A DNA stretch of 64,000 bases from Pseudodesulfovibrio cashew (GTDB lineage Bacteria > Desulfobacterota > Desulfovibrionia > Desulfovibrionales > Desulfovibrionaceae), in NCBI RefSeq assembly GCF_009762795.1, contig NZ_CP046400.1:2767501-2831500 (forward strand), written 5' to 3'. Under the pieces are notes generated by a model that searched no databases, was not told where the DNA came from, and saw nothing but the letters and a program-made list of their open reading frames with translations. Below are positions 2,228 through 19,346 of this stretch, in pieces. Both the position numbers and the translations under genes were made by a program. Each line of letters opens with the position of its first letter. The stretch's first letter is position 1.

Positions 2228-2255
2228 ATCTGACAGCTTAACGCGCGCGTGCGAG

Positions 2256-3989: not shown

Positions 3990-4054
3990 CACCTCAAAAC
4001 AATTGTTTTAGCGTTTCTGTTCCGATCGAAATAATCGTCGTCTTGAGGGCCTCC

Positions 4055-7000
4055 ATGGAAAATCTATTTTTTGAACATCCTATTCTGAATTCTCCTTACG
4101 ACTACCCTGAACAACATTGGGAACTCGATAAACAGGGACAGCCTACTCAAAAAGTCATAAATCGACGCCGTCAGGCAGACTTCATAACGCCAATTCCCAA
4201 GCCCAAGAAGCGGAAGGCCAAAGCCGAACAGGCCAAGATGGTCTTTGACGAGGGCAAGGGGCTCTCCACACAAGAGCAGCAGTATACGGCAACAGCTCGG
4301 ACCATCAACGCTCTTCGAGAACACGTGGACGCTTGGAGGAAGATTCCTGATCCTGGCGGGTGGAAAGTAACGCCAGAAACCGCCCGCCTGCTCCAGCATT
4401 GGAGACACCATAAGTTCAGCGGCATTCGTCCTTTTTTCTGTCAGGTTGAAGCTGTTGAAGTAGCCATTTGGCTTACCGAGGTAGCTCCTAAGCTGGGTAA
4501 GAAAGGGAAAGCCTTTCTGGAGGTACTTGCTAACGCCAACAATGACGCGAATCCCGAGTTGATGCGACTGGCTCTCAAACTGGCGACAGGTGCTGGCAAG
4601 ACGACTGTCATGGCGATGCTCATCATCTGGCAGACCATCAACGCCGTCCGTCATCCGACAAGCAACAAGTTCACTCGTGGATTTCTCATCGTCGCTCCCG
4701 GGTTGACCATCAAGGATCGGCTGAGGGTGCTCCAGCCCAATGATCCAGACAGCTATTATGCTAGCCGAGAACTGGTTCCCAATGACATGATGGCGGACCT
4801 CGAACGGGCCAAAATCGTTATCACCAACTACCATGCCTTCAAACTCCGTGAACGCATGGACTTGTCAAAGGGGAGCCGATCCTTGCTTCAAGGACGCGGG
4901 GAGGAGCTGAATACTCTTGAAACCGAAGGGCAGATGATCCAGCGCGTCATGCCTGACTTGATGGGCATGAAAAACATCCTGGCGATCAACGATGAAGCAC
5001 ACCACTGCTACCGGGAGAGGCCCGATAGTACGGATGTTGAAGACTCCAAGGGGGATGAGAAGGACGAAGCCAAGAAGAACAACGAAGCCGCACGGCTCTG
5101 GATTTCAGGGCTTGAGGCGGTAAATCGAAAACTCGGTCTCACCTGTGTCATTGATCTTTCGGCGACTCCCTTCTTCTTGCGAGGCTCAGGCTATGCCGAG
5201 GGAACACTCTTTCCCTGGACCATGAGCGACTTTTCGCTGATGGACGCCATTGAATGCGGTATCGTCAAATTGCCCCGCGTTCCTGTGGCGGACAATCTTA
5301 TCGACAGAAGCGAAATGCCAAGGTTCAGGAATTTGTGGGAGCATATCGGCAAGAAGATGCCTAAGAAGGGCCGGGGCAAAGCTAAAAACCTTGACCCCTT
5401 GGCTATTCCTACAGAACTCCAGACGGCGTTGGAGGCGCTGTATGGGCACTACGCCAAGACCTTTGATTTGTGGAATGAGAGCGGCATCACTGTGCCGCCT
5501 TGCTTCATCGTAGTGTGCAACAACACCTCTACGTCCAAGCTTGTTTACGAGTATATTTCCGGGTTCACTAGAGAGAACGACGACGGATCGATGACGCCAG
5601 TTCCGGGCCGGTTGGAGTTGTTCAGGAATACAGACGAACATGGCAACCCGCTTCCTAGGCCTAGAACCCTCTTGATTGACAGCGAGCAGCTGGAGTCTGG
5701 AGAGGCTGTGGATAAGAATTTCAGGGAAATATACAGCGAAGAAATTGATCGTTTCCGCAGAGAAATTATCGAACGAACCGGGAGCAGGGAACAGGCGGAG
5801 AACATCACCGACCAGGACCTGCTACGCGAAGTCATGAACACGGTGGGAAAGAAAGATCGCCTCGGAGAATCCATCCGCTGCGTTGTCTCTGTCTCCATGC
5901 TGACGGAAGGCTGGGACGCCAATACCGTGACCCATGTACTCGGTGTTCGGGCTTTCGGAACGCAGCTCCTCTGTGAACAGGTCATTGGTCGCGCCTTGCG
6001 TAGGCAGTCTTATGATCTGAACGAGGAAGGACTGTTCAATGTCGAATATGCAGATGTTCTGGGCATCCCCTTTGACTTCACAGCCAAGCCCGTGGTGGCT
6101 CCTCCTCAGCCTCCCAGAGAGACGATTCAGGTCAAGGCTGTGAGGCCCGAGCGTGACCATCTGGAAATTCGCTTTCCAAGGGTTGAGGGTTATCGCGTTG
6201 AACTGCCGGAAGAACGCCTTGAAGCCGAATTCAATGACGATTCCATCCTGGAGCTGACACCGACCCTAGTAGGACCTTCCATCACCAAGAACCAAGGTAT
6301 CATCGGCGAGGATGTTGATCTCAGCCTAGAGCATCTTGGAGACATGCGCAGGTCAACATTGCTCTTCCATGTGACCAAACGGTTGCTCTACACTAAATGG
6401 CGTGATCCTGGGGAAGAGCCCAAAATGCACCTGTTCGGCCAGCTCAAACGGATCACCAAGCAATGGCTGGACAACTGCCTGGAGTGTAAGGGTGGAACCT
6501 ATCCGGCGCAGCTGATGTATCAGGAGTTGGCGGATATGGCCTGTGAGCGGATCACTGCCGGGATTACCCGCAAGCTGGTGGGCAAGAGTCCGGTCAAGGC
6601 GGTGCTTGACTCGTTCAACCCGGTGGGCTCGACCATGCACGTCAACTTTAACACTTCCAAGCGGAATCGTTGGCAGACGGATTCGCGCCGATGTCATGTG
6701 AACTGGGCCATTTTGGACAGCGATTGGGAAGGAGAGTTCTGTCGTGTGGTGGAGTCGCACCCCAAGGTCAAGGCGTATGTCAAGAATCATAACCTGGGGC
6801 TTTTTGTTCCCTATCGCTATGGTTCGATCATGCGAACCTACATCCCAGATTTTATTGTCCAGGTCGAAGACAGGCACGAAGACCTTCTCAACCTGATCGT
6901 GGAGATCAAAGGCTACCGGGGTGAGGACGCCAAGGAAAAGAAATCGACCATGGAGAACTACTGGATTCCCGGTGTGAACAACCACAAGCAATTTGGGCGA

Positions 7001-7120
7001 TGGGCGTTTGCAGAACTAACGGAAGTTTTTAAAATCGAATCGGATTTTGCAGCCAAGGTGGAATCCGTCTTCAATGATATGATCCTCGGCGTAAGTGAAG
7101 CCAGAGACGAACAGGAATAG
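4055..7120 (+). CDS. type III restriction Res-like helicase-nuclease
   Basis: DEAD/DEAH superfamily 2 helicase fused to a nuclease domain, as in type III restriction subunits. Visible motifs: Walker A LATGAGKTT (about residue 176), DEAH in NDEAHH (about 313), motif III DLSATPFF (about 367), and motif VI QVIGRALRR (about 640). A C-terminal PD-(D/E)XK signature is present: IPDFIV near 930 and VEIKGYRG near 950. It is about 1021 aa, the usual Res size. The ATG at 4055 follows GAGGG and is preferred over the TTG at 4043. The methyltransferase starts five bases downstream, the reverse of the common mod-res order. Expected role: ATP-driven translocation and cleavage of unmodified DNA, with the methyltransferase as partner. 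Confidence 0.85.
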   Translation: MENLFFEHPILNSPYDYPEQHWELDKQGQPTQKVINRRRQADFITPIPKPKKRKAKAEQAKMVFDEGKGLSTQEQQYTATARTINALREHVDAWRKIPDPGGWKVTPETARLLQHWRHHKFSGIRPFFCQVEAVEVAIWLTEVAPKLGKKGKAFLEVLANANNDANPELMRLALKLATGAGKTTVMAMLIIWQTINAVRHPTSNKFTRGFLIVAPGLTIKDRLRVLQPNDPDSYYASRELVPNDMMADLERAKIVITNYHAFKLRERMDLSKGSRSLLQGRGEELNTLETEGQMIQRVMPDLMGMKNILAINDEAHHCYRERPDSTDVEDSKGDEKDEAKKNNEAARLWISGLEAVNRKLGLTCVIDLSATPFFLRGSGYAEGTLFPWTMSDFSLMDAIECGIVKLPRVPVADNLIDRSEMPRFRNLWEHIGKKMPKKGRGKAKNLDPLAIPTELQTALEALYGHYAKTFDLWNESGITVPPCFIVVCNNTSTSKLVYEYISGFTRENDDGSMTPVPGRLELFRNTDEHGNPLPRPRTLLIDSEQLESGEAVDKNFREIYSEEIDRFRREIIERTGSREQAENITDQDLLREVMNTVGKKDRLGESIRCVVSVSMLTEGWDANTVTHVLGVRAFGTQLLCEQVIGRALRRQSYDLNEEGLFNVEYADVLGIPFDFTAKPVVAPPQPPRETIQVKAVRPERDHLEIRFPRVEGYRVELPEERLEAEFNDDSILELTPTLVGPSITKNQGIIGEDVDLSLEHLGDMRRSTLLFHVTKRLLYTKWRDPGEEPKMHLFGQLKRITKQWLDNCLECKGGTYPAQLMYQELADMACERITAGITRKLVGKSPVKAVLDSFNPVGSTMHVNFNTSKRNRWQTDSRRCHVNWAILDSDWEGEFCRVVESHPKVKAYVKNHNLGLFVPYRYGSIMRTYIPDFIVQVEDRHEDLLNLIVEIKGYRGEDAKEKKSTMENYWIPGVNNHKQFGRWAFAELTEVFKIESDFAAKVESVFNDMILGVSEARDEQE

Positions 7121-7125
7121 ATACC

Positions 7126-9951
7126 ATGGCAAAGAAGAAAAATCTCAAATCCGTTGAAACCATCACGCACGAAGACGCTTCCAGAAAGCATATTCCCACT
7201 GCCGAATGCCAGTCCATCTTGCGTAAGGAGCACCAGGACCCCATCCGAGTGGCGTATGAACGGCGCAACCGCGATCTTGATCCCCAGCTTGTTTGGCGCG
7301 GCAAAGATGAACAGGACTGGTCCGACCTGGTGGTCAGTGCGCCGCCGTTGTTCATCCAAGAAAAAGTCCATCCGAAAGTACTCATAGACGAACTGACCGA
7401 GCGGACCAGGAAGCAGGGAGGGGCCAAGGTCCCCCAGCAGATGAGCCTCTTTGACGACTTCAATGGTCTTCCTGATGAAAACGCCAAGACGGAATTCTAC
7501 CAGCATGATTCCAACTGGTCGAACCGGATGATCCTTGGTGACAGCCTTCAGGTCATGGCTTCACTTGCAGAGAGAGAGGGCATGCGGGGAAAAGTGCAGT
7601 GTGTCTATTTTGATCCTCCCTATGGTATTAAATTTAATTCCAATTTTCAGTGGTCGACTTTCAACAGAGATGTGACAGACGGGAAAAAGGAACATATCAC
7701 GCGTGAGCCTGAGCAGGTTAAGGCTTTTAGAGATACATGGAGGGATGGAATTCATTCATACATGACATACATGCGTGATAGGCTAACTGTAGCAAGAGAC
7801 CTTCTTGCAGATTCTGGATCTCTTTTTGTGCAGATTGGCGATGAAAATGTTCATAGAGTTAGAACGCTTCTTGATGAAATCTTTGGTCAAGACAATTATG
7901 TCTCAACGATTGTATTTGTTAAAACATCAAGTTCAACAAGTGATTATCTCGGACCAACATTTGACTATATTTTATGGTACGCAAAGAACAGGCCATCAGT
8001 AAAATATAGAAAGATATTGCTAAAAAAAGAGCCCGGTAAAAAAGGTGGAACAGGATATAAAAGTGTACAACTAAAAAATCTAACTCGTCGTTCTTTAACA
8101 AAAGAAGAGTTGCTGGCTCCTGGTATACTGCCTGAAGGATCGAAGATATATTTTCGTGATAATCTAACCAGTCAGAGCATCGGCAGGGCAAAAGGGGAAG
8201 GCGCTTCATCTTGGTTTGGTGTTAAGTTTGAAGGAAAGACAATTACTCCATCAAATACGGTACGCTGGAAGACCAACGAACAAGGTTTTGATAGACTTCT
8301 TAAGGCATATCGGGTTGATGCGAGTTCTAATAATAAACTGGGTTATATTCGTTTTTTAGATGACTACCCTGCTTATGAGCTCACTGATGTTTGGCATGAT
8401 ACCTTAGGGCAGAATCAATTTGGAGGATCAAAAATATATGTGGTCCAAACAGCTCTATCTGCTGTAACAAGATGTATTCTAATGGCATCGGACCCTGGTG
8501 ATTTGATCCTTGATCCTACATGCGGTTCTGGGACAACTGCTTACGTAGCCGAACAGTGGGGAAGAAGGTGGGTTACGATAGACACGTCAAGAGTCTCTCT
8601 GGCTTTATCTAGAGCTAGAGTTATGGGGGCTCGGTATCCATACTATATACTTTCTGACAGCAAAGAGGGACAAATTAAAGAAGCCGAACTATCACGTACT
8701 GAACCTTCATTGAAATCAACGCATGGCTTCGTTCGGCAGGGGTTTGTCTATGAAAGGGTCCCTCATATTACGCTTAAATCAATAGCTCATAACTCTGAGA
8801 TTGATGTAGTCTGGGACAAATACAAAAACCGCCTTGAGCCAATATTGAATAATCTTAACGAGATCCTAAATACCGACTGGGAAGATTGGCAAATTCCCGT
8901 TTCTGCGAAAGAAGAATGGCCCCAAAAAGCAAAAGAGTTGCACGGTGATTGGTGGAAGCATCGAATCGCTCGACAGGAAGAAATTGACGCCTCAATTGCA
9001 GCCAAAGCTGATTTTGAATACCTCTACGACAACCCCTACGAGGACAACAAAAAGGCCCGTGTAGCCGGCCCTTTCACCGTCGAAAGCCTCTCTCCTCATC
9101 GCGTGTTGACAGTAGATGAAAACGACGAGCTTGTTGATGAACTTGCCAAGCCCGATCAGCAGGTAGAAACGCAGGACTTCGCGCAAATGGTCCTGGAGAA
9201 TCTCAAGACCGCAGGTGTCCAGCAGGCGCATAAGGAAGACAAGATCGTCTTTTCCACCATCAAGCCCTGGCCAGGGTACTATGTCTGCGCCGAAGGGGTG
9301 TACTACGAGGGCGAGGAAGACTCCGGCGTGGAGAAACGGGCAGCTATTTTCATCGGGCCCGAGTTCGGCACAGTCTCCCGTCCAGACCTCGTAGCGGCAG
9401 CACGGGAGGCTGGCGACGCAGGGTTTGACGCCTTGATAGCCTGTGCTTTCAACTATGACGCACATTCTTCGGAGTTCAATAGTCTGGGGCGGATACCTGT
9501 GCTCAAAGCGCGGATGAACGCCGACCTGCACATGGCGGACGACCTCAAGAACACCGGGAAGGGCAATCTCTTCGTCATCTTCGGCGAACCGGACATCGAC
9601 ATTTTAGAAGCCAAGAACAGTCAGGTACAGGTCAAGATCAACGGCGTGGACGTTTTCCACCCCAATACCGGCGAGGTCCGTAGCGATGGAGCCGAAGGCA
9701 TTGCCTGCTGGTTCATCGATACAGACTACAACGAGGAGAGCTTCTTTGTCCGCCACGCCTATTTCCTCGGTGCGAATGATCCCTACAAGGCCCTGAAGAC
9801 AACGCTCAAAGCGGAGATCAACAAGGAGTCCTGGGATACCCTCAATAGCGACATCTCCCGCCCATTCGACAAGCCTGAGTCGGGCCGCATAGCAGTCAAA
9901 GTCATCAACCATCTTGGCGATGAAGTCATGAAAGTCTACCGGGTGGGTTGA
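7126..9951 (+). CDS. type III Mod-like beta-class adenine DNA methyltransferase with long C-terminal extension
   Basis: Site-specific DNA methyltransferase (N6-adenine or N4-cytosine). The catalytic DPPY lies near residue 163 and the AdoMet-binding LDPTCGSGTT near 462, the IV-before-I order of the beta class. A recognition region should lie between them. The protein is 941 aa; residues after about 500 form an extension of some 400 aa that I cannot assign. Base composition is mosaic: bases about 7600-8990 are AT-rich, while both flanks are GC-richer (21 G/C in the 60 bases at 7981 against 41 in the 60 at 9361). It is sandwiched between the Res-like gene and a small membrane protein gene. It likely marks self DNA and supplies sequence specificity to the Res-like protein. 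Confidence 0.85.
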   Translation: MAKKKNLKSVETITHEDASRKHIPTAECQSILRKEHQDPIRVAYERRNRDLDPQLVWRGKDEQDWSDLVVSAPPLFIQEKVHPKVLIDELTERTRKQGGAKVPQQMSLFDDFNGLPDENAKTEFYQHDSNWSNRMILGDSLQVMASLAEREGMRGKVQCVYFDPPYGIKFNSNFQWSTFNRDVTDGKKEHITREPEQVKAFRDTWRDGIHSYMTYMRDRLTVARDLLADSGSLFVQIGDENVHRVRTLLDEIFGQDNYVSTIVFVKTSSSTSDYLGPTFDYILWYAKNRPSVKYRKILLKKEPGKKGGTGYKSVQLKNLTRRSLTKEELLAPGILPEGSKIYFRDNLTSQSIGRAKGEGASSWFGVKFEGKTITPSNTVRWKTNEQGFDRLLKAYRVDASSNNKLGYIRFLDDYPAYELTDVWHDTLGQNQFGGSKIYVVQTALSAVTRCILMASDPGDLILDPTCGSGTTAYVAEQWGRRWVTIDTSRVSLALSRARVMGARYPYYILSDSKEGQIKEAELSRTEPSLKSTHGFVRQGFVYERVPHITLKSIAHNSEIDVVWDKYKNRLEPILNNLNEILNTDWEDWQIPVSAKEEWPQKAKELHGDWWKHRIARQEEIDASIAAKADFEYLYDNPYEDNKKARVAGPFTVESLSPHRVLTVDENDELVDELAKPDQQVETQDFAQMVLENLKTAGVQQAHKEDKIVFSTIKPWPGYYVCAEGVYYEGEEDSGVEKRAAIFIGPEFGTVSRPDLVAAAREAGDAGFDALIACAFNYDAHSSEFNSLGRIPVLKARMNADLHMADDLKNTGKGNLFVIFGEPDIDILEAKNSQVQVKINGVDVFHPNTGEVRSDGAEGIACWFIDTDYNEESFFVRHAYFLGANDPYKALKTTLKAEINKESWDTLNSDISRPFDKPESGRIAVKVINHLGDEVMKVYRVG

Positions 9952-9952
9952 T

Positions 9953-10564
9953 GTGATTGAGAGCATATCTACAGCCTTCAATTCGCTAACTGCGGCAGAC
10001 ATTGCAAGCCTTCTTGTCTCTGTTGCACTTGTCGTCTTGACGGCTGTTTTGGCTCGATACACACGCACGCTAGCGATTGAGGCTAAAAAGGCCAGAGAAC
10101 TGCAAACAAGTCCAAATGTCATAGTGACTGCGGTTCACGACGAGAGCAGGCCGACAATTATTATGTTGGTCGTACAAAATATCGGCAATGGAATGGCATT
10201 GGATGTTTCATTCATGAGTTCTGTGCCGCTTCAAAAAGCGTATGGCATTTCAGAAGATACAAAGAGAGAACCACAGCCTATTGATCGAGGCCCCTTGGTT
10301 ACGGGGATTCCTGCGCTCGGCCCAGGCGAGAGCAGAAAGATGGACTGGGGACAACCTGGGGGACTTTTTAAGCTGGTTGGCAGTGAGGCTGTGACAATAG
10401 AGTGTAAGTATACTTCACAGGAAGGGCAAAATTATTCAGGCATGTTCAAGGTGGATATTGAATCGTTCATGATGACAAATGCAAATGAAAGCATGCCGTT
10501 GAGGACGGTCAAGGCGCTCGAAGATATTGCCGACAACACTAAAAAGGCTTTGAGTAAGTTATGA
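9953..10564 (+). CDS. membrane-anchored hypothetical protein, 203 aa
   Basis: Begins with GTG directly after the methyltransferase stop and ends in an ATGA overlap with the next gene, so it is translationally embedded in the operon. One membrane span near the N-terminus (IASLLVSVALVVLTAVLARY) precedes a basic helix and then a soluble, probably beta-rich domain (NVIVTAVHDESRPTIIMLVV and NIGNGMALDVSF). The region resembles small domains common in proteins of unknown function with an N-terminal anchor. The position suggests a membrane-associated accessory factor of the defence system. No enzymatic motif is visible. Confidence 0.6.
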   Translation: MIESISTAFNSLTAADIASLLVSVALVVLTAVLARYTRTLAIEAKKARELQTSPNVIVTAVHDESRPTIIMLVVQNIGNGMALDVSFMSSVPLQKAYGISEDTKREPQPIDRGPLVTGIPALGPGESRKMDWGQPGGLFKLVGSEAVTIECKYTSQEGQNYSGMFKVDIESFMMTNANESMPLRTVKALEDIADNTKKALSKL

Positions 10565-12627
10565 TATTCCGAATAGCCGACACATTCACCGATAGTCTTG
10601 GCAAGCTCACGGTCCAAGAGCAGAAAGCGGTCAAAACGTCTGCCTTTGATTTGCAAATGAATCCTGCAAATCCAGGGATTCGTTTCCATAAATTGGACAA
10701 GGCAAAAGACCCGAATTTTTGGTCCGCCAGTGTCAGTATGGACATCCGGATCATCGTCCACCGCACCGAAAACAGCCTTTTGCTTTGCTACGTGGATCAC
10801 CACGACAAAGCCTACCAATGGGCTGAACGAAGAAAGCTGGAAACTCATCCGAAGACTGGCGCGGCTCAGATTGTCGAAATCCGGGAGACAGTGAAAGAAA
10901 TCACCGTGCCCGTGTATGTCGATACCATCAAAAAGGCCCCCGCGAAACCAACATTGTTTGCTGACACGTCAGATGAGGAGTTGTTGAGCTATGGCGTCCC
11001 TGTTGACTGGCTTGAAGACGTAAAGCAAGCCACTGAGGACTCTCTGCTTGAGCTGGCTGACCATCTGCCCCGTGAAGCAGCAGAAGCTCTTCTTGATCTA
11101 GCTACAGGCACTCAGCCTGTGATGTACAAGATGGCCCTTGGCAGCGATCCTTTCGAGCATCCCGATGCTCAACGCCGATTCCGTTTGATGACGGATGTGG
11201 AAGAACTCGAACGAGCCTTGGATTATCCTTGGGAGAAGTGGACCGTTTTTCTTCATCCAGCACAGAAGAAACTCGTGGATCGAGACTATTCCGGCCCTGC
11301 CAGGGTGTCAGGCTCTGCCGGAACAGGAAAGACCATCGTTGCCCTTCATCGAGCAGCACACTTGGCTCGCAGCAATGAAAATGCTCGCGTATTACTGACC
11401 ACCTTTTCCGATCCCTTGGCATATTCTCTTCAAAATAAACTGGCCCGCCTCCTAGGCAAGGAGCCCAGGCTTGGAGAACGGCTAGAAGTGCAATCCATGA
11501 ACTCCGTGGGTGTGCGTCTTTATAAGGCAAATCTGGGAGCATTGAAGGTCGCGCCCAAGGAAGCTGTTAACGAACTACTGGAACAAGCGTCTGCTCAGGT
11601 CGAAGATCACAAATTCAGCTCTTACTTCTTGCGAACCGAGTGGGAAGAGGTTGTGGATGCCTGGCAGCTCGACACTTGGGACAAGTATCGTGACGTTGTT
11701 CGCCTTGGTCGGAAGACAAGACTTCCCGAGAAGCAGCGAAAAGTTCTTTGGGAAATATTTGAAATCGTTCGCTCTGGTTTGGAAAGTAAGGGAATGAAAA
11801 CCCTTTCGCAGATGTTTAGCGAACTTGCCGTTCATTTAGAAGGAAGCGCGAACCCGCCATTTGATTACGCCATTGTGGACGAGGCTCAGGACATAAGCAT
11901 TGCTCAGCTTAAATTTTTAGCGGCTCTTTCATCCAGACCTGATAGCTTGTTTTTTTCTGGCGATCTTGGACAAAGGATCTTTCAGCAGCCATTTTCCTGG
12001 AAATCGTTAGGAGTTGATATTCGAGGACGGTCAAACACGCTTCGGATCAACTACAGAACATCCCACCAGATTAGACAACAGGCTGACAGGTTGCTTGCCC
12101 CGGAATTAGCAGACGTTGACGGTGTCATAGAAGATCGTCGTGCAACACAATCTGTCTTCAATGGCCCAAAACCAATCATTCAAGTCACTGATAGCCAGGA
12201 AGAAGAGCAGCAAATCGTCGCAGAATGGCTGAAAGACTTGTTGGGGGATGGATACACTCCTGCTGAAATCGGAGTGTTTGTCCGCTCTGACAATGAAATC
12301 CCAAGAGCACAACAGGCCGTCCAAAATTCAGGGTCTCCCTTCGTTGTCTTGGATGAAAAACTTCTTCCAGCGACGGAACAAGTTTCCATCTGTTCTATGC
12401 ATCTAGCTAAGGGGCTTGAATTCCGAGCTGTAGCGGTTATGGCATGTGATGATGAAATTATTCCTTTACAAGATCGTATTGATACCGTGGTCGATGATTC
12501 TGACCTGGAAGAGGTCTACAATACCGAACGACATCTACTCTATGTTGCCTGCACACGCGCAAGAGATCATTTGTTCGTGACCAGCGTTGATCCTGAGTCA
12601 GAGTTCATTGACGACTTGAAGATGTAA
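10561..12627 (+). CDS. RelE/ParE-fold domain fused to UvrD-like superfamily 1 helicase
   Basis: The first 95 or so residues match the RelE/ParE toxin fold (FWSASVSMDIRIIVHR, then DHHDKAYQWAERRK). After a linker comes a UvrD/Rep-type helicase: Walker A SGSAGTGKT near residue 252, DEAQD near 439, motif IV INYRTSHQIR, motif V MHLAKGLEF and motif VI YVACTRARDH. This fusion occurs as a recognisable family in bacteria; whether the RelE-like part is an active nuclease is unknown. The start overlaps the preceding stop by four bases. It probably acts as a DNA translocase in the defence locus. Confidence 0.8.
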   Translation: MIFRIADTFTDSLGKLTVQEQKAVKTSAFDLQMNPANPGIRFHKLDKAKDPNFWSASVSMDIRIIVHRTENSLLLCYVDHHDKAYQWAERRKLETHPKTGAAQIVEIRETVKEITVPVYVDTIKKAPAKPTLFADTSDEELLSYGVPVDWLEDVKQATEDSLLELADHLPREAAEALLDLATGTQPVMYKMALGSDPFEHPDAQRRFRLMTDVEELERALDYPWEKWTVFLHPAQKKLVDRDYSGPARVSGSAGTGKTIVALHRAAHLARSNENARVLLTTFSDPLAYSLQNKLARLLGKEPRLGERLEVQSMNSVGVRLYKANLGALKVAPKEAVNELLEQASAQVEDHKFSSYFLRTEWEEVVDAWQLDTWDKYRDVVRLGRKTRLPEKQRKVLWEIFEIVRSGLESKGMKTLSQMFSELAVHLEGSANPPFDYAIVDEAQDISIAQLKFLAALSSRPDSLFFSGDLGQRIFQQPFSWKSLGVDIRGRSNTLRINYRTSHQIRQQADRLLAPELADVDGVIEDRRATQSVFNGPKPIIQVTDSQEEEQQIVAEWLKDLLGDGYTPAEIGVFVRSDNEIPRAQQAVQNSGSPFVVLDEKLLPATEQVSICSMHLAKGLEFRAVAVMACDDEIIPLQDRIDTVVDDSDLEEVYNTERHLLYVACTRARDHLFVTSVDPESEFIDDLKM

Positions 12628-12648
12628 TCCACAATATCCGAGGTTGCT

Positions 12649-15600
12649 ATGGTGCCGCCGATTGAACCGAATACTCGCGTAAGGCTAGTTAATGATCCAG
12701 AACGGACAGGGATCACAACTACTAGGTTCAAAGAAACGAGTCGGGGCCTTAAATACCAAATCCGATTCGACGACAACGGGCAGCACGGTTATCAACCAGA
12801 GTACGAGCTGGAAGTAATTAAGGACGACAATGAAGATTGGGATGACCTCCTAAAACGTAAACGTTTTGGGAAGCTGTCTGCAATGCGACGCCACCTTACA
12901 CATATCCATCTGAATGGGCGTCTAGCTAATGTCGTCTACAGTATGGAAACAACAAACACCAAGTATTACCCCCACCAGTACAAACCCCTCTTATCCTTTT
13001 TGGAATCGCCATCAGGCGGCCTACTGATTGCAGATGAAGTTGGCCTTGGTAAAACCATTGAAGCCGGTCTTATTTGGACAGAATTACGCGCCAGAAGGGA
13101 TGCTCGGCGCTTGCTTGTCATTTGCCCGGCGATGCTCTGTGATAAGTGGCGCGACGAACTTCAATTTCGTTTTGGAGTCGAAACAACCAAAATGGGGGCT
13201 CAAGAGTTACTCACTGAACTCAGGCGCGACAAGGGAGTAGTACCTGACGGGAAAGGGATAGTGTGTAGTCTGGAAGGGATTCGCCCTCCGTCGGCAACTA
13301 AACGCAAAGAAAATCCTAATTCAACTAAAGCAAAGTTGGTTGATCTACTTGAAAGCAAAGCCGACGAAGATTCTCTTATTGACCTGTGTATCATTGATGA
13401 AGCGCATTATTTAAGGAATCCTGAATCACGCAGCAATAAGCTCGGTGAGCTAATTAGAAACGTATCGGGTAGCATTGTTCTGTTGTCAGCAACGCCAGTG
13501 AATCTGCATAGCGATGACCTTTTCCACCTTCTTGAGATTGTGGACCCTGACTATTTTCAAGACAAAAGGGATTTTCCAGAAGTCTTAGAAGCAAACGCAC
13601 CTCTTATCAAAGCAAGAGATTTGATTCGAAATTCGAACTCTTCCCTGCAAATGGTTCAGAGTTTATTAGATACAGCTGCGAAACATCGTTTGCTTGTGGA
13701 CAATAGACAACTCGCAACTCTCAGGAGTGAACTCAGGGACAATGATTCTGAACTTAGCATGAAGGATAGGGTCCTAATTGCAGGCCGTATTGAACGAGTT
13801 AATATGTTGGGCCATGTTGTAAATCGAACTCGTAAGCGAGAGATGCCCATTGAGCGGGTAATCAGAAAGCCAAATATATATCACGTCGCTATGGCTGACC
13901 ATGAAGAGGAGTTGTATTGGTTGGTCACATCAGAAATAAGAAAATATGCTGCCATGAAGGATATTTCTGACGGATTTCTTTTGGCTAGTCCCCAGCGGCA
14001 AGTTTCAAGTTGTATGTATGCAGCCATTAAAGGGTGGATCGACAAAGAAACATCTGTAGACGAACTGCTTTATGGTGATTTGGGGGGAGAGGCAGAGAAT
14101 GAAAGGGAGAGTGAAACGAATGAAATTGGCCCCCTAGTGCGGCACATGATTGAAACCGTTTTGCCTGAAGTTAATTTGCAGGATTATTGGGACGTAGATA
14201 GTAAGTTTGAAGAGTTAATTAAGCATCTGACTAATCACTTTAATACGAATCCGAATGAGAAGATTATCATTTTTTCTTACTTCAAGGGGACTATCAACTA
14301 TCTGTCAAAAAGACTTCAAGAGGCTGGTTTTGGGAACATGGTTCTTTATGGTGGAGTCGCTGACGATAAACAAGAATACATAGCAAAATTCCGTAATTCA
14401 GATACTGCAAAAGTCCTTATCGCCTCCGAGGTTGCCAGTGAGGGCGTTGACCTTCAGTTCTGTACAATGCTCATCAATTACGACCTCCCTTGGAATCCAA
14501 TGAAGGTCGAACAACGGATAGGTAGGTTGGACAGAATAGGTCAGGAATCAGAATCAATTTCTATCCTGAATTTATGTCATGAAGGGACCATCGACCATCG
14601 AATTGTTGAACGTCTCCACAAAAGGCTTGGTGTTTTCACAACCTCCATCGGTGAGTTGGAGCCGATATTGGGGCCGGTGATTTACCAGCTTACTAGCGAT
14701 CTCGTTCGTCATGACCTGACCCCTCAAGAGATTGATGCACGTCTTGAGCAAACAGAACAGGCAATAGAACAAGAGAAAAGGAATAATGAAGAGCTAGAAA
14801 AGGAAGCACCAAATCTCCTAGCGCATGGTGACTATATTTTGCAAAAAGTAAAGGCTGCCAGAGATTTTCGCCAAAGAATTAGCCACGACGATCTGATTGC
14901 TTACGTTAAATACTTTTTGGACAATTACGCACAAGGTCACACCTTTAGACAAATCGATCAATCGAAGTCGACCTATGAGATACAGCTCCCAACTGATGTT
15001 GCTGCAGACTATAACGCATACGTTGCTGACAAAAAGAGCTCCGGGGCCACACGTTTACAATCTGGGCAACCCGTAAAATGCCAGTTCGCCAATAAGGTCC
15101 ATCAGTTGACTCGCAACTTAGAGCAAATCAGTCAGTTTCATCCACTTATTCGATACATCTCCTCTAAACTAGATCATGAAAAAGGAATTTTTCATCCACT
15201 AGTATCAGCCCAAATCCCATCCCTAGAGGCTTCTGGAGTGCCACAAGGGTTATATGCATTTGCTTTGTCGAGGTGGACATTTAAAGGCCTTCGAACTGAG
15301 GAGGAAATTAGAGCAAGGGTAAGAAGTCTGCAGTCAGATGAACTATTCCCAGCAGACAGTTCGCTTGAATTGATGAACTCTCTTAGAGCCGTTGGCTGCA
15401 ATTGGACTTCGGCCTCAAATCAAAGTCTGCCTCAGAATATTGAAGACGCCATTTGGGAATGTATTGATGCTTTGGAAGGGGACTACGAGGAATTATCTTC
15501 TGTTAAAATTGACGAAAATTTCGACCGGGTCTCGTTTCAGATTCAGTCCATCGAAAACAATCGTGCAAGGCGTACGAAATCGCTTACTGCTACCATTGAA

Positions 15601-15756
15601 AAATTAGGTCCTGACAGCAAACAGACGCCGGCATTTAGACGACAATTGGAAAATCATCATAGCCGATGCGACGTTCAAGTAGAGACATATGAAAAGAAAA
15701 AGAATCTTGTGCGTTCACAGGATGCAATTTGTTGTGGGATAGTTAAGGTTTCGTGA
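12649..15756 (+). CDS. SNF2/RapA-like helicase, 1035 aa
   Basis: A small N-terminal SH3-like or beta segment (NTRVRLVNDPERTG) precedes a SNF2-family ATPase. Motif I is ADEVGLGKTIEAG (about residue 128), motif II IIDEAHYLRN (about 250), motif III LLSATPVNLH, and motifs V-VI ASEGVDLQF and EQRIGRLDRIGQ (about 620). This is the RapA/HepA branch. The last 350 residues, with a charged coiled-coil region, are unassigned. SNF2 proteins of this branch occur in several defence systems (for example the DrmD subunit of DISARM), but no other DISARM gene is present here. ATG at 12649 follows GAGG. The gene is AT-richer than the upstream Res gene. Confidence 0.8.
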   Translation: MVPPIEPNTRVRLVNDPERTGITTTRFKETSRGLKYQIRFDDNGQHGYQPEYELEVIKDDNEDWDDLLKRKRFGKLSAMRRHLTHIHLNGRLANVVYSMETTNTKYYPHQYKPLLSFLESPSGGLLIADEVGLGKTIEAGLIWTELRARRDARRLLVICPAMLCDKWRDELQFRFGVETTKMGAQELLTELRRDKGVVPDGKGIVCSLEGIRPPSATKRKENPNSTKAKLVDLLESKADEDSLIDLCIIDEAHYLRNPESRSNKLGELIRNVSGSIVLLSATPVNLHSDDLFHLLEIVDPDYFQDKRDFPEVLEANAPLIKARDLIRNSNSSLQMVQSLLDTAAKHRLLVDNRQLATLRSELRDNDSELSMKDRVLIAGRIERVNMLGHVVNRTRKREMPIERVIRKPNIYHVAMADHEEELYWLVTSEIRKYAAMKDISDGFLLASPQRQVSSCMYAAIKGWIDKETSVDELLYGDLGGEAENERESETNEIGPLVRHMIETVLPEVNLQDYWDVDSKFEELIKHLTNHFNTNPNEKIIIFSYFKGTINYLSKRLQEAGFGNMVLYGGVADDKQEYIAKFRNSDTAKVLIASEVASEGVDLQFCTMLINYDLPWNPMKVEQRIGRLDRIGQESESISILNLCHEGTIDHRIVERLHKRLGVFTTSIGELEPILGPVIYQLTSDLVRHDLTPQEIDARLEQTEQAIEQEKRNNEELEKEAPNLLAHGDYILQKVKAARDFRQRISHDDLIAYVKYFLDNYAQGHTFRQIDQSKSTYEIQLPTDVAADYNAYVADKKSSGATRLQSGQPVKCQFANKVHQLTRNLEQISQFHPLIRYISSKLDHEKGIFHPLVSAQIPSLEASGVPQGLYAFALSRWTFKGLRTEEEIRARVRSLQSDELFPADSSLELMNSLRAVGCNWTSASNQSLPQNIEDAIWECIDALEGDYEELSSVKIDENFDRVSFQIQSIENNRARRTKSLTATIEKLGPDSKQTPAFRRQLENHHSRCDVQVETYEKKKNLVRSQDAICCGIVKVS

Positions 15757-15763
15757 GGGACAC

Positions 15764-17056
15764 ATGCCGATCAATCTGCAAGCAACTCAATACCAGGGTG
15801 TAAATCAGGATTCTTTTCCAAGGCGGCGGATTGTTATCGGGTTAGATTTTGGAACCGCGTATACTAAGTGTGTGGTGCACATAACAGGTGAGAGGCGGCA
15901 GGCTATCCAGTTCAACGAATCAAAAGAGGGGATTAGTAGGTATCTTGTAAGAGGGCTTGTCTCAATCGATGAAAAACGCCATTTTCATTTGGGGGGAAAA
16001 TATGCGCGTTCATTTGATGATTTAAAGTCTGCTCTTCTGAACAAGTCGATGCAAGGCCAAAAGCTTGCCTGTGCTATGGGGTTGATGAGCGCGTTCTTGG
16101 CTTTGGTGTTACGGCATGTGCGAGAGTGGGTTTTGACGAAGCAAAGTGACGTTTTATCGGGGCATTATATTGAGTGGGATTTGAATATTGGGATGCCAAC
16201 TGACAGCTACACCGATAGAATTCTAATGGATCGGATAAAGGTCGCTGCGGCTGCAGCCTGGGACAACAGTTTCGCTTCAGAAGTGACTATACGATCTGTT
16301 AGCGATTCACTAGAAAAGGCCCAAATAAAGCTAAGAAAGAAAAGTCTTCCCGATTACATTTCTATAGTTCCTGAATTTGTCGCTCAAATAACTTCATATG
16401 TGAAGTCTTCATCAAGACAGAATGACTTGCATGCTGTTTTGGATATTGGAGCAGGTACTGTGGATTTTGCCGTTTTTAACGTACATGAAGATGACGGAGA
16501 TGATAAGTATCCTATCTATTCGAAGTCTGTGAAACCATACGGCACTTTTGTTTTGATGAGAGAATGTTTGGGTGCTGGAGAAATCGAACAGCGGTTGATG
16601 TTTGAGATAGAAAATGAGTTTGATTATTCGCAGTACTATCGTCCGATGAGTTTACACAACAAGGCAATGTCTCAGATTAAAAGTGGGTTCAATAGAGCTA
16701 TGACTTGTTATCCCCAAAGCCCTCGCTGGAGATCTGGACTTCCTCTTTTCCTCTGCGGCGGGGGGAAAAACTTAGATTTTTATAAAGAGTTAGTTACTTG
16801 TGTAGTTGATTGCAGAGAATTCATCCCAGGCATGTCAAACAAGGCCATAACGAGAAGTGCGTTTCCAACTCTTGATGGTCTTAATGCTCCAACTCTTTCT
16901 TCTAAAGACCACGACAGACTATCCGTCGCTTACGGGCTGTCGAGGGATATTGATGATTTTGGCTTATTAATAAAGGGAGACAATTGGGGGGAGGTGCAAT
17001 CTTACTCTCGAACGTCATCTCTTAGTGACCGCTTTGTTGATAAGGATCAGGTGTAA
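15764..17056 (+). CDS. Hsp70/actin-fold ATPase-like protein, 430 aa
   Basis: Contains the three nucleotide-binding signatures of the actin/Hsp70/sugar-kinase fold. These are phosphate-1 GLDFGTAYTK (residues 26-35), phosphate-2 VLDIGAGTVDF (about 225-235) and an adenosine motif LFLCGGG (about 328). At 430 residues it lacks the Hsp70 peptide-binding domain, so it is closer in size to ParM/MreB or the ATPase-only Hsp70-like proteins. It starts seven bases after the helicase stop, in the same transcript. It may polymerise or act as an ATP-dependent switch that licenses the downstream nucleases; this is inference from context. Confidence 0.7.
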   Translation: MPINLQATQYQGVNQDSFPRRRIVIGLDFGTAYTKCVVHITGERRQAIQFNESKEGISRYLVRGLVSIDEKRHFHLGGKYARSFDDLKSALLNKSMQGQKLACAMGLMSAFLALVLRHVREWVLTKQSDVLSGHYIEWDLNIGMPTDSYTDRILMDRIKVAAAAAWDNSFASEVTIRSVSDSLEKAQIKLRKKSLPDYISIVPEFVAQITSYVKSSSRQNDLHAVLDIGAGTVDFAVFNVHEDDGDDKYPIYSKSVKPYGTFVLMRECLGAGEIEQRLMFEIENEFDYSQYYRPMSLHNKAMSQIKSGFNRAMTCYPQSPRWRSGLPLFLCGGGKNLDFYKELVTCVVDCREFIPGMSNKAITRSAFPTLDGLNAPTLSSKDHDRLSVAYGLSRDIDDFGLLIKGDNWGEVQSYSRTSSLSDRFVDKDQV

Positions 17057-17117
17057 CTCATATGTTGTCAAACAAAGTGGTCCTACTTTTGGAATCTTTG
17101 GTACGTAAATCAAGGTC

Positions 17118-17300
17118 TTGCCCATGCCGCATCTTTCTCGTGGATGGTCAAAACAGAAGTCTTCTGACGTAGGGCGTCAGCTAAAAGCCTTATGCCAACA
17201 AAATAGTTATTCAGATGTTCCAGAAGGATTTACTGAATCATCTCAAAGCATCATTCGGCAACTCGGTTCGTCTGCCGAGCAGTATTGGTTTTATCCCTGA
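17118..17300 (+). CDS. possible small ORF overlapping the nuclease start, up to 60 aa
   Basis: A short ORF (TTG at 17118 or ATG at 17124, the latter with AAGG eight bases upstream) sits between the ATPase gene and the nuclease-like gene. It overlaps the first 86 bases of the latter in another frame. The peptide is polar (GWSKQKSSDVGRQLKALCQQ) and ends in SAEQYWFYP. It fills an otherwise unusual 158-base gap in a tightly packed operon. It could be a coupling peptide, a small protein or chance. Confidence 0.3.
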   Translation: MPMPHLSRGWSKQKSSDVGRQLKALCQQNSYSDVPEGFTESSQSIIRQLGSSAEQYWFYP

Positions 17301-18093
17301 ACCAAAGGGAACTCTTAATATTCATATTAATAATCCCGACTGTAATATGCAGTCCGATCGGAACGCCTTTGAAGGGTGGGCATTGGCCTCCCGCGTAGCC
17401 GGTTTTGAGCATGTTCGTCTTTCGTGGGCTACAGAGAGCATTAAGGAACCAAAGCACTACAATCGTTTTTTGTATCGAGCTTTCATGTTCTCCAAGTATT
17501 TTAAGTGGTTTTCTTCGGATGTTCTCAATGTGGATCATATAGTCGGAGTTGGTATCGAAAAGTACATCAATCATGGAACTGTCTCTGCCTCTGTCAAAGA
17601 CGATCCGAGATCCGAGTCTGCTTATGAGGATTGCTTGTATCGCTCCCAAGTTTTTAGAGTCGAGCACAATATCGATGAAGGTAGAATTGCTAGGCAACTT
17701 CCGGTTGGAGTCTATACCGAGAATCCTCCCACAGAGAAGAGCGCACTTTTTACGGGAAATGCTTCGGCGATAGATTTGATCGGTTTAGACCGCGATGGCG
17801 TTCTGAAATTGTTTGAGCTCAAGGTGGCAGGTAACAAGAAGGTCGGCGCCCTTTCGGAATTGTTTTTTTATTCGTGTATCCTCAATGACATACGGAGCGG
17901 TTTCATAAAGCCTTCTTCTGACGCGCTCATACGAGACTCTCTCCTGAGTTGGCAAGATGTCATTAATTCCAAGAAAATTGAAAATTATATCATCTCTTCC
18001 GGAGAGCTTCACCCCATAGTCAGAGGCGTGTGTGCTAGTAGCGTACTAGAGAATTTCCCAGTCACCTGCATAGAGGGCTACAAGTGCGAATAA
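17215..18093 (+). CDS. PD-(D/E)XK nuclease-like protein, 292 aa
   Basis: The C-terminal third shows a restriction-endonuclease-fold signature: Asp187 in AIDLIGLDRDG, then Glu201-Leu-Lys203 in LFELKVAGNKK, followed by a helix (ALSELFFYSCILNDI) typical of the fold. The first 180 residues are unassigned. The start is uncertain: ATG at 17215 lacks a clear ribosome binding site, and ATG at 17347 is an alternative. The stop overlaps the start of the metallo-hydrolase gene by ten bases, so the two are translationally coupled. It likely cleaves or binds DNA within the system. The motif is clear but the family is not named. Confidence 0.6.
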   Translation: MFQKDLLNHLKASFGNSVRLPSSIGFIPEPKGTLNIHINNPDCNMQSDRNAFEGWALASRVAGFEHVRLSWATESIKEPKHYNRFLYRAFMFSKYFKWFSSDVLNVDHIVGVGIEKYINHGTVSASVKDDPRSESAYEDCLYRSQVFRVEHNIDEGRIARQLPVGVYTENPPTEKSALFTGNASAIDLIGLDRDGVLKLFELKVAGNKKVGALSELFFYSCILNDIRSGFIKPSSDALIRDSLLSWQDVINSKKIENYIISSGELHPIVRGVCASSVLENFPVTCIEGYKCE

Positions 18094-19346
18094 TCATCCA
18101 TCGTGGGGCTGATGAGATCGGCGCGAGCTGCGTGGAGGTCGCGTATGGCACAACGCGCATTCTTCTGGATGCCGGTACCTCATTAGATGGCTCGGTGACC
18201 GTGTTCCCTGACGATATCAATGACTATTCAGCCGTAATCATTTCACATGGGCATCAGGATCATTATGGACTTCTTGAGAGCTTGCCTGAAAGCGTTGAAT
18301 TGTACATGGGGGATGTCGCTTGGGGTTTTCTGCAAAGCCTCAGGATATTCACTGGTCAACCGCCGTTAGCAGAACGGTCACGTATTTGCTTGAAGGCGGA
18401 GAGGCCTTTCAAAATTGGCGAAATTGTCGTGATGCCATATCTTGTAGATCATTCCGCGCCGGAAGCTTTTGGTTTTCTCCTTTCGGCGGGAGGACGAACA
18501 ATATACTACAGCGGCGATTTTCGAGCGCACGGGAGAAAGGCCAAGACCTTCGATTATCTGTGTGACCGGCTTCCTCGTGAAATGGATGCCGTATTGTTGG
18601 AAGGTACGTTGATCAACCGGGGCAATTCCCATTTCAGCGATGAATCAAAAGTGGAAGAGGGGATAATTGATGCGATTGGCAAGGAAGAGGGACTTGTCTG
18701 TCTCAGTTGTTCAGCACAAAATATCGATAGGATGGTGACGGCTTTCCGGGCTGCCAAGCGAAGTGGCAGGGTTTTAGCCCTTGATATCTATTCCGCTTGG
18801 ATATTGCGAGTTGCTCAGAAGCTGTCAAAGAATATTCCGGATATCCGATGGGACGGTATTCGGGTTCTTTCACACAATAAAGTCGCTTTGGGACAGTATC
18901 GGAAGATAAAACAGAACAGTGGGTTTTTCGGAGACTTCGTTCGTGAACTCTATCACTCAGACAATGAGTTGTGGGAGAAGGATATTGTGGATTCACCGTC
19001 CCGATATCTTCTCAAGCTGAGCGACTTTGGACTAGCGCACATCCTTCAAAAGCTTCGAAAGCCTTCAACCGTTATATACTCACAGTGGTCCGGGTATCTT
19101 GACCATGATTCATCAGCATACAACGAGCCGGCTGGGGCGCTCAAAGCTCTCGCTGGGGAACGGTTTTATGAAATCCATACGAGCGGGCATGCGACCAAAG
19201 AGGATCTTGAACGTTTTGTGTCTCAAATATTGCCGAAAACAGTTATTCCGGTTCATACCAACCATAAGCATATGTTTGGGGCATTGTTTTCCCAAACAAT
19301 CGTATTGGATGATGGGGAAGTTTTTGATTTGGCAGCGACGACGTAA
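18084..19346 (+). CDS. beta-CASP metallo-beta-lactamase-fold nuclease-like protein
   Basis: Metallo-beta-lactamase fold with the metal-binding HGHQDH motif at residues 55-60, a further His in VDHSAPEAFG and the Asp of YYSGDFRAHG. A beta-CASP insertion is suggested by SCSAQNIDRM, HTSGHATKEDL and the terminal PVHTNHKHMFG. This places it with RNase J/CPSF-like nucleases, although at 420 aa it is shorter than RNase J and lacks the C-terminal domain. GTG start at 18084 inside the end of the preceding gene. It is the last gene of the series; the sequence up to the tRNA holds only the tRNA terminator. A role in degrading invader DNA or RNA is inferred. Confidence 0.75.
   Translation: MRIIIHRGADEIGASCVEVAYGTTRILLDAGTSLDGSVTVFPDDINDYSAVIISHGHQDHYGLLESLPESVELYMGDVAWGFLQSLRIFTGQPPLAERSRICLKAERPFKIGEIVVMPYLVDHSAPEAFGFLLSAGGRTIYYSGDFRAHGRKAKTFDYLCDRLPREMDAVLLEGTLINRGNSHFSDESKVEEGIIDAIGKEEGLVCLSCSAQNIDRMVTAFRAAKRSGRVLALDIYSAWILRVAQKLSKNIPDIRWDGIRVLSHNKVALGQYRKIKQNSGFFGDFVRELYHSDNELWEKDIVDSPSRYLLKLSDFGLAHILQKLRKPSTVIYSQWSGYLDHDSSAYNEPAGALKALAGERFYEIHTSGHATKEDLERFVSQILPKTVIPVHTNHKHMFGALFSQTIVLDDGEVFDLAATT

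Follow-up and report, generated by a model that had tools for sequence, protein, structure and literature searches.

We analysed a 64,000-nucleotide stretch of the Pseudodesulfovibrio cashew chromosome (NZ_CP046400.1, positions 2,767,501 to 2,831,500; hereafter the window) that carries a run of eight genes, P1 to P8, and found that two of them, encoding a SNF2/RapA-like DNA translocase (P5) and an Hsp70-fold ATPase (P6), recur side by side in distant bacteria. What our data support best is that P5 and P6 form a functional unit of two genes with the behaviour of antiviral cargo. The eight genes are probably not one system; they look like a composite of a restriction cassette (module A: P1, P2 and P4, with P3 in its usual gap), the pair P5-P6 (module B) and the pair P7-P8 (module C). 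With some confidence, we favour a composite locus in which P5-P6 is a separate antiviral motor-plus-switch module docked on the restriction cassette within an island at tRNA-Leu. The genes are as follows.

P1, 4043..7120 (ATG alternative 4055), + strand: superfamily 2 helicase-nuclease, Res-like; module A (NCBIfam, Pfam)
P2, 7126..9951, + strand: N6/N4 DNA methyltransferase, Mod-like; module A (Pfam, PADLOC)
P3, 9953..10564, + strand: small protein, hydrophobic near the N-terminus, encoded between Mod and RelE-UvrD (hydropathy)
P4, 10561..12627, + strand: GajB-like UvrD helicase with a RelE-like N-terminus (by eye); module A (Pfam)
P5, 12649..15756, + strand: SNF2/RapA-like DNA translocase; module B (Pfam, PADLOC, family alignment)
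P6, 15764..17056, + strand: Hsp70-fold ATPase, nucleotide-binding domain only plus a C-terminal tail; module B (AlphaFold2, Foldseek)
P7, 17215..18093, + strand: PD-(D/E)XK-like motif, orphan; module C (motif by eye)
P8, 18084..19346, + strand: RNase J-like metallo-beta-lactamase/beta-CASP hydrolase; module C (Pfam, NCBIfam)

All eight open reading frames (ORFs) are intact and lie on the + strand from 4043 to 19346, with successive gaps of 5, 1, -4, 21, 7, 158 and -10 bases, and the co-directional, closely spaced arrangement described in the first-pass annotation, which was made from the sequence alone, is therefore confirmed. P1-P6 are tightly packed (gaps of -4 to 21 bases), and P7-P8, which overlap by 10 bases, are set off by 158 bases. 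The domain calls of that annotation hold for P1, P2, the UvrD part of P4, P5 and P8 in Pfam, NCBIfam or PADLOC and, by predicted structure, for P6 as an Hsp70 fold; RelE in P4 and PD-(D/E)XK in P7 are motif readings, and Pfam detects neither. P3 had been called membrane-anchored, and hydropathy gives one strongly hydrophobic stretch, starting near residue 16.

P5 and P6 occur as a pair

A search of 84,980 genomes with P5 confirmed 234 stretches, the best 80 of which were kept; from plasmids, we opened seven of the eight records that gave a match. We defined the close relatives of P5 as the best 49 loci by similarity (at least 371 bits; 44 genome contigs and 5 plasmids; loci carry our own L numbers), 48 of which could be assessed, as L007 ends 6 bases after P5. 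A P6-family gene is directly adjacent to the P5 relative in 47 of these 48 loci (46 by an automated overlap rule, L033 by a separate comparison), upstream of it in three (L020, L032 and L083) and downstream in the others. In the 48th, L014, inspection by eye shows another Hsp70-like frame, which lies two genes further on, and L140, found through P6, is an additional paired locus outside this count. Across 45 pairs, the distances among P5 proteins co-vary with those among P6 proteins (Mantel r = 0.954; the highest value in 2000 permutations was 0.275).

In a P5 tree of 69 rows, the paired rows make up one clade of 48 with a Shimodaira-Hasegawa-like approximate likelihood-ratio (SH-aLRT) support of 100, composed of 47 rows labelled Hsp70 and L007; we assigned the labels manually for the window, L033 and L014, and rows shorter than 850 amino acids (e.g., L003 and L041) were excluded. 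The clade covers Pseudomonadota, Acidobacteriota, Cyanobacteriota, Thermodesulfobacteriota, Bdellovibrionota, one Bacteroidota and one Actinomycetota label. Many paired rows are metagenome-assembled genomes, and the Bacteroidota row (L013) is nearly the same as L016 and may be wrongly labelled.

When we searched in reverse from P6, we found its family in 8 of the 395 genomes of a phylum sample (E <= 1e-15), and a SNF2 gene adjoins the P6 homologue in six of the seven P6-bearing genomes other than our own. On plasmids, P6 matches occur in six records, each of which also shows a P5 match alongside. Among 98 near relatives, P6 is present only in its own genome and one other, and no P6 relatives were found in phages. 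Taken together, these data make it almost certain that P5-P6 is a functional two-gene unit.

P6 has a predicted Hsp70 fold and P5 is a SNF2 motor

The AlphaFold2 model of P6 has a mean predicted local distance difference test score (pLDDT) of 87.2 and a predicted template-modelling score (pTM) of 0.87. The best 50 of its 408 Foldseek matches (E <= 0.001) are entries for Hsp70-family proteins or for complexes that contain one, with E from 5e-11, TM-scores (query length) of 0.42-0.52 and root-mean-square deviations of 6-9; among the matches, 6w6e is a ClpB entry. D28, K88, E204 and D227 are invariant in all 32 aligned rows, and we take them to be the counterparts of the Hsc70 catalytic set; the same alignment picks out G332 and R385-x3-A-x-G-L close to the end. 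P6 therefore combines a predicted Hsp70 nucleotide-binding fold with invariant catalytic residues. No peptide-binding domain is found in its sequence or model, and the protein ends about 25-30 residues past the last confident element, in a C-terminal tail modelled with low confidence. A short, loose tail pattern (hydrophobic, hydrophobic, small, K/P/R/S, D/E, any of eleven, V/M/C/T/L/I/A/Q) fits 22 of the 48 complete P6-family proteins, P6 included. Long variable N-terminal extensions occur in relatives of P6, which itself has no such extension.

Some members of the family end differently: a two-repeat DnaJ-type CxxCxGxG ending is found by pattern in 3 of the 48 complete members, and a fourth, L004, is seen in the alignment only. 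The Hsp70-type partners that terminate in these zinc-finger repeats are those of L003, L004, L019 and L040.

P5 carries the Pfam domains SNF2-rel_dom and Helicase_C, its nearest solved protein is RapA (E 8e-33), and the SNF2 motor motifs are conserved in a 45-row alignment of the family. Its last 316 residues match only the PADLOC DrmD model (PDLC02623). In the C-terminal third, H831-P832 and W876 are conserved; no conserved nuclease signature is seen there in the same alignment, and we rejected P5 as a nuclease.

Related SNF2 genes have other chaperone-fold partners

We surveyed the partners of P5-relative rows of at least 150 bits. At 256-328 bits, a sacsin/Hsp90-type ATPase lies beside the SNF2 gene in eight of nine loci, in one of them by a match that is weak and short, and the ninth locus is cut; the one sacsin-type partner tested has Pfam SACS. 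At 221-246 bits, seven mostly actinobacterial loci have a canonical-looking Hsp70 partner, with Pfam HSP70 in both of the partners tested (8e-29 and 6e-35). Neither an Hsp70 nor a sacsin partner is seen in L043, L055, L061, L064, L065 and 16 rows at 175-189 bits. In the P5 tree, the sister clades sit on long branches, whose placement may be wrong. Because sister clades pair with sacsin/Hsp90-type or canonical-looking Hsp70 genes, several branches of this SNF2 family appear, by gene neighbourhood, to use a chaperone-fold ATPase partner.

Two of these groups deserve mention in their own right. The DrmD-like SNF2 helicase with a sacsin/Hsp90-type ATPase (L044, L045, L047, L048, L052, L054, L088 and L089) may be a system of its own, and the one such partner tested, in L047, is TmtA in PADLOC. 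The mostly actinobacterial group (L056-L060, L062 and L063) combines a SNF2 helicase with a canonical-looking Hsp70 of 419-477 amino acids.

The pair keeps company with restriction systems

At least one of 14 restriction or defence markers is present in 25 of 48 paired loci, and in 22 of the 33 with a stretch of at least 17 kb, compared with none of 17 control loci with an unpartnered SNF2 gene. The markers near the pair are McrB/McrC with a TM0106-type nuclease, BrxC with a PglX-type methyltransferase, DrmA, ZacB/ZacC, PDC-S68, type IIG, a DruE-type helicase, RelE-UvrD and Res/Mod; other loci, for example L086 and L087, have the pair and none of the 14. By kind of system, these neighbours are McrBC, BREX-like, DISARM, Zac, type IIG or Druantia-like genes. 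We take this enrichment as support, not proof, of a defence role. One of the markers, the PADLOC candidate PDC-S68 (a RecD2-like helicase of about 1250 amino acids), recurs beside the SNF2-Hsp70 pair in L018, L024, L033, L046 and L140, as tested with PADLOC in L018 and L140 and by a similarity match in the other three.

In the window, the pair follows module A. P1 scores 1393 bits with the NCBIfam restr_BPTD_3080 endonuclease model (cut-off 800) and carries Pfam ResIII and RE_endonuc; P2 matches Pfam N6_N4_Mtase (4e-33) and PADLOC MTase_III (PDLC03632, 1606 bits). P1-P2 is thus a Res above cut-off adjoining a Mod, as in type III-like restriction-modification (R-M) of the BPTD_3080 family. P4 has Pfam UvrD_C and UvrD-helicase and reaches up to 78 bits with PADLOC GajB models, and its RelE-like N-terminus is read by eye only. 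Within the limits used, neither Pfam nor NCBIfam nor PADLOC assigns P3 to a family, and in L091-L093 other small ORFs without a significant match to P3 take its place.

Relatives of P1 occur on 38 plasmid records (E <= 1e-60). Of five that were opened, four carry Res, Mod and RelE-UvrD in order, three of them with small variable genes in between (in L092 the Mod match consists of two overlapping pieces), and the fifth has Res alone in 20 kb. In the phylum sample, P1 is found in 40 of 395 genomes including its own (E <= 1e-100), and we fetched loci from 18. Ten of these have a Res at least 73% identical, seven of the ten extend at least 2.5 kb past Mod, and five of the seven have RelE-UvrD (one as a fragment); it is absent from the stretch beyond Mod in L127 and L130. 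Known antiviral pairs are cargo of the cassette in 3 of the 18 phylum loci: SIR2 and HerA between Mod and RelE-UvrD in L124 (PADLOC, 526 and 870 bits), IetA and IetS at the same place in L126 (243 and 117 bits), and GajA and GajB after Mod in L127 (938 and 856 bits). The gap between Mod and RelE-UvrD is empty in L123, L125 and L090. Module A recurs without module B in both the plasmid and the phylum loci. From its sequence, we read module A as a predicted type III-like R-M cassette with exchangeable antiviral cargo downstream of Mod; by analogy with the BPTD_3080 family, it would be a putative ATP-dependent nuclease for unmethylated sites.

Some relatives of the cassette show further features. 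Mod is split into two frames in L123 (9858-14826), with a 504-amino-acid ORF on the same strand in between, and in L127 (8132-12909), with a 458-amino-acid ORF on the opposite strand; each is possibly an inserted element. Past RelE-UvrD of the SIR2-HerA-bearing cassette, L124 has a frame of at least 1214 amino acids (3-3644) with a sacsin-type profile match (1.8e-21).

The full eight-gene set occurs in none of the other loci fetched. The nearest is Halomonas cerina L018, where five of the genes are present but arranged differently, and the conserved gene order that could have marked a single system does not recur among the loci fetched. Between the window and L018, Res is 76%, Mod 64% and RelE-UvrD 62% identical, compared with 38% for P5 and 28% for P6, and P3, P7 and P8 have no match within 23 kb of L018. 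The pair stands after RelE-UvrD in the window, and between Mod and RelE-UvrD, together with PDC-S68, in L018. The two P5 proteins are not sisters; that of the window groups with L019 (support 94) and that of L018 with L005-L007 (support 98). Because module A is 62-76% identical while P5 and P6 are distant and the P5 proteins are not sisters, the simplest reading of these sequences is that the Res-Mod-RelE-UvrD cassette took up a SNF2-Hsp70 pair twice. The G+C content at third codon positions (GC3) of P5-P6 is 0.41-0.42 in the window, compared with 0.63 (P1), 0.50 (P2) and 0.49 (P4); in L018 it is 0.60 and 0.50 for the pair, compared with 0.87 (Res) and 0.73 (Mod), and 0.52 for RelE-UvrD.

P7 and P8 are an add-on

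The nuclease label of P7 comes from an ID...ELK stretch read in its translation, and its fold model (pLDDT 34.5) gives no usable fold; searches of plasmids, of viral contigs and of the 394 remaining phylum-sample genomes gave no relatives. P8 has Pfam Lactamase_B_2 and RMMBL (beta-CASP/metallo-beta-lactamase) and matches the NCBIfam RNase J family at 5e-19, below cut-off. Relatives of P8 occur on 9 plasmid records (E <= 1e-20) and none were found in viral contigs; the neighbours differ among the five plasmid records opened. P7-P8 is an add-on to the locus. On plasmids (L096-L099 and L101), the P8-type beta-CASP hydrolase often has an unannotated gene of about 320-340 amino acids immediately on one side of it or a metallophosphatase following it, and may be a small module of its own.

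The locus lies in a probable integrative element at tRNA-Leu

The locus ends 118 bases from a tRNA-Leu gene, and the first-pass annotation was right to place a defence-type locus in a mobile, tRNA-anchored island. The features of the island in and next to the window are the following, where L139 is the adjoining upstream stretch of the same chromosome.

tRNA-Leu(taa), 19465..19551, - strand: right island end (ARAGORN)
DUF3987/NrS-1 primase-polymerase-type protein, 13..1641 (frame begins upstream of the window, L139:19266), + strand: Pfam DUF3987 5e-65, NrS1-1_pol-like_HBD 8e-13

L139 encodes an integrase (Pfam Phage_integrase and Arm-DNA-bind_3), an HTH_17 protein and the start of the primase-polymerase, which runs into the window. 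Directly before the integrase, about 22.4 kb upstream of tRNA-Leu, is a degenerate copy of the 3' half of the tRNA-Leu gene, which agrees with the gene end at 20 of 24 positions; the next-best site in the 39.5 kb searched has 8 mismatches, and the mean best of 30 shuffles is 8.2. The run of identical bases crosses the anticodon region, and ARAGORN calls no tRNA at this remnant. Because the degenerate copy lies beside the integrase upstream and tRNA-Leu lies at the right end, we put the size of the element at about 22.4 kb. The G+C content falls from about 0.59 around the element to 0.40-0.55 over it (1 kb steps). When we looked for an empty site in the genus, the tRNA-Leu side matched in 35 of 36 genomes; on the left flank, the matches listed for genomes other than its own are only scattered and partial, and because the left flank has no clean matches in the genus, the left boundary is set by the tRNA remnant and the integrase. 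A scan for promoters and terminators gave 21 and 17 sites, compared with 19.5 and 16.1 in shuffled sequence, nothing beyond chance. The integrase, HTH protein and primase-polymerase beside the tRNA-Leu remnant (L139:17087-18997 and window 1-1641) look like a satellite-like integrative element.

A motor-plus-switch model and its alternatives

Because the pair keeps company with restriction systems and stands in the same module A region as known antiviral pairs, we consider a protective role against phage likely. That P6 gates P5, rather than acting on something else, is a view towards which we lean slightly, because the pairing is near-obligate, the ATPase residues are intact and a peptide-binding domain is absent. 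In the proposed mechanism, P5 would load onto invading DNA, or onto complexes working on it, and translocate. P6, as an Hsp70 nucleotide-binding domain without a peptide-binding domain, would bind P5, and its ATP/ADP state would gate the motor, which may be released or locked on meeting phage replication or transcription complexes, so that phage nucleoprotein complexes would be stripped or stalled. Self DNA would carry the mark of Mod, the DNA exposed by the motor would be cut or unwound by Res and RelE-UvrD, and P7-P8 could serve as an accessory nuclease/hydrolase pair. The pairing, co-variation, Hsp70 fold, intact catalytic residues, modularity and restriction-system company rest on sequence and prediction; from these we infer a physical P5-P6 complex, gating, an anti-phage effect and an order of action.

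Several observations weigh against these readings. Many loci are near-copies, Sphingomonadales foremost, and the 47 adjacent pairs are not 47 independent events. In one phylum genome (G311), the 20 kb stretch that holds the P6-family gene contains no SNF2 gene, and two actinobacterial rows near the paired clade, L043 and L055, lack a neighbouring Hsp70 or sacsin gene. The TM-scores of P6 are only 0.42-0.52, its sequence profile gives near-equal and faint matches to DnaK (E 0.004) and ParM (E 0.008), and its tail pattern was defined post hoc and holds in 22 of 48 proteins only. The markers were picked from the same loci in which they were counted, and shared helicase domains can reach the phmmer threshold of E 1e-20, which makes both the count and its control soft. 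The low P5 identity between the window and L018 could stem from fast evolution instead of two captures, and RelE-UvrD also has a low GC3 in both loci (0.49 and 0.52), so that composition gives no clean split between modules A and B. Finally, P5 has no visible nuclease signature, which leaves unexplained how the pair alone would harm phage.

The locus might instead be a divergent DISARM or ARMADA in which Res replaces the YprA helicase and Mod replaces PglX, which we consider unlikely. P5 matches the PADLOC DrmD model (911 bits) and the NCBIfam DISARM_DrmD model (NF038317; 453 bits, cut-off 610) over most of its length, and the DrmD of class 1 DISARM is, like P5, a SNF2 helicase of about 1000 amino acids in restriction-type operons. 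The P5-P6 pair is near a DrmA-type gene in L028 and L040, which argues against a clean split from DISARM. The partner of DrmD is DrmA, however, whereas that of P5 is an Hsp70-type ATPase. DrmD above the NCBIfam cut-off is present in 13 of the 395 phylum-sample genomes, and no Hsp70-type, canonical Hsp70 or sacsin gene is near it in any of the 13 loci (within up to 1.5 kb, and less in the truncated L165 and L167); in longer stretches of 12 of them, an Hsp70-type gene is found in none, a weak sacsin-profile match in one and DrmA in eight. Because P5 is below the NCBIfam cut-off, is 27-33% identical to above-cut-off DrmD proteins (over 176-666 residues) and has a partner that DrmD loci lack, it is therefore not the DISARM helicase proper. 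DrmA, DrmB and DrmC were also not found: the DrmA of L040 has no tblastn match in the window, among the PADLOC matches listed for P1-P8 only P5 touches a DrmA model (170 bits, far under DrmD), and PADLOC lists no DrmB or DrmC model for P1-P8 (within the best 25 matches for P2, P4 and P5). On these grounds, we rejected membership in DISARM. The first-pass annotation had stated that DISARM markers (DrmA/B) are absent; PADLOC does give P5 a DISARM name, but that label is misleading.

ARMADA type II, as described, comprises the RapA-like ArmA, the methyltransferase ArmB, the YprA-like ArmC and the RelE-UvrD protein ArmD, and lies in tRNA-anchored mobile islands (PMC12458937). The window resembles it in having a RapA-like helicase, a DNA methyltransferase and a putative RelE-UvrD protein in one such locus; P4, with its UvrD domains and a RelE part read by eye, would have the architecture of ArmD as given there (PMC12458937); in L017 (Photobacterium), a DruE/MZB-type helicase, RelE-UvrD, P5 and P6 are side by side. 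In contrast to ARMADA type II, no YprA-like helicase or PglX-type methyltransferase is found in the window, which has Res, the Hsp70-type ATPase, P7 and P8 in addition. A search of the window with the DruE/YprA-type protein of L017 gave no match, and P1-P8 have no MZB domain in Pfam; the PglX-type protein of L016 has no match either, and P2 is an N6_N4 methyltransferase of the type III kind. A tblastn search of the window with one representative each of DrmA, DruE, BrxC, PglX and type IIG from other loci gave no match.

P6 could also be a dedicated folding chaperone for the large helicase P5 and nothing more. Its Hsp70 fold with a full catalytic set, the DnaJ-type zinc-finger pattern at the end of at least three relatives and the other chaperone-type ATPases in sister clades are compatible with such a role, which we nevertheless find improbable given that P6 has no peptide-binding domain in sequence or model and that partner specificity across entire clades would be unusual for such a chaperone.

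A housekeeping or stress pair riding islands and plasmids, in which RapA-like recycling of RNA polymerase is joined to an Hsp70-type helper, would fit RapA as the nearest solved protein to P5 and loci such as L086 and L087 with none of the 14 markers. We think this a poor candidate: the spread is patchy (8 of 395 genomes), plasmids carry the pair, restriction systems keep it company and it shares the module A region with SIR2-HerA, IetAS and Gabija cargo.

One integrated eight-gene defence system, as the first-pass annotation had proposed from the short gaps and common direction of P1-P6 and the shared island, is very unlikely, as Res-Mod-RelE-UvrD and SNF2-Hsp70 each recur without the other, P7 has no relatives in the searches made, P8 relatives have other neighbours, 158 bases precede P7, GC3 differs between P1, P2 and P4 and P5-P6, and P3, P7 and P8 are unmatched in L018.

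Returning to the motor-plus-switch module, we are aware of no second SNF2-Hsp70 pair in defence, nor of any relative of P5-P6 that has been tested. As a tentative generalisation, a SNF2 motor with a chaperone-fold ATPase (an Hsp70 nucleotide-binding domain, a canonical Hsp70 or an Hsp90/sacsin type, depending on the clade) might constitute a new and widespread class of bacterial antiviral machine, acting alone or alongside restriction or defence systems of at least six kinds. It could be a design counterpart of eukaryotic SNF2 remodellers, which carry actin-fold subunits. If P5-P6 is antiviral, the PADLOC DrmD label would hide the pair in genome surveys. The pair also poses a testable question, whether an Hsp70-type ATPase gates a DNA translocase, and a Res-Mod-RelE-UvrD cassette with swappable cargo (SIR2-HerA, IetAS, Gabija or SNF2-Hsp70) suggests a search rule, which is to inspect the region downstream of Mod.

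Comparison with known systems

No named system covers the locus in the PADLOC and NCBIfam results, as had been anticipated. A relation to Hma, which had been thought possible, was rejected: P5 reaches 166 bits with HmaA, weaker than with DrmD (911 bits) and BrxHI, no HmaB is among the best 25 matches of P2, and P6 has no HmaC match. For BREX, PADLOC gives no PglZ or BrxC model for P1-P8 (within the best 25 matches for the longest lists), and the BrxC of L016 has no match in the window. For Gabija, no GajA model is among the PADLOC matches listed for P1-P8, and the GajB similarity is that of P4 given above. The only PADLOC model that P6 touches is the B component of the candidate PDC-M61, in a short partial match (E 4.5e-10, residues 196-249).

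In the parts available to us of the open-licence literature, including PMC12458937, PMC12839542, PMC11090510, PMC3710099, PMC7159879 and PMC10853773 and leaving aside subscription papers and most preprints, no SNF2-Hsp70 defence pair is described. The separate elements do appear there, with Hsp70 in McrBC-type and GTPase-centred systems (PMC11090510; PMC7159879) and RelE-UvrD in ARMADA type II (PMC12458937).

Module A is closest to type III-like R-M of the BPTD_3080 family, as P1 is over the cut-off of that family and a P2-type Mod follows in four of the five plasmid loci opened; the window cassette differs in adding RelE-UvrD and a place for exchangeable cargo. For module B, the accessible text on CoCoNuT systems with the Hsp70-like CnuD describes, as here, an Hsp70-type domain in a restriction-type operon, and some GTPase-centred conflict operons are described as having, like P6, an HSP70 domain without a peptide-binding domain (PMC11090510; PMC7159879). 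According to the same sources, CoCoNuT is McrBC-centred, its Hsp70 is a unit of nucleotide- and substrate-binding domains and the ATPase motifs of CnuD are degenerate (PMC11090510), and the HSP70 partners in GTPase-centred conflict systems are GTPases, tubulin homologues and GrpE (PMC7159879). In contrast, P6 consists of the nucleotide-binding domain only, keeps an invariant catalytic set and is partnered with a SNF2 protein.

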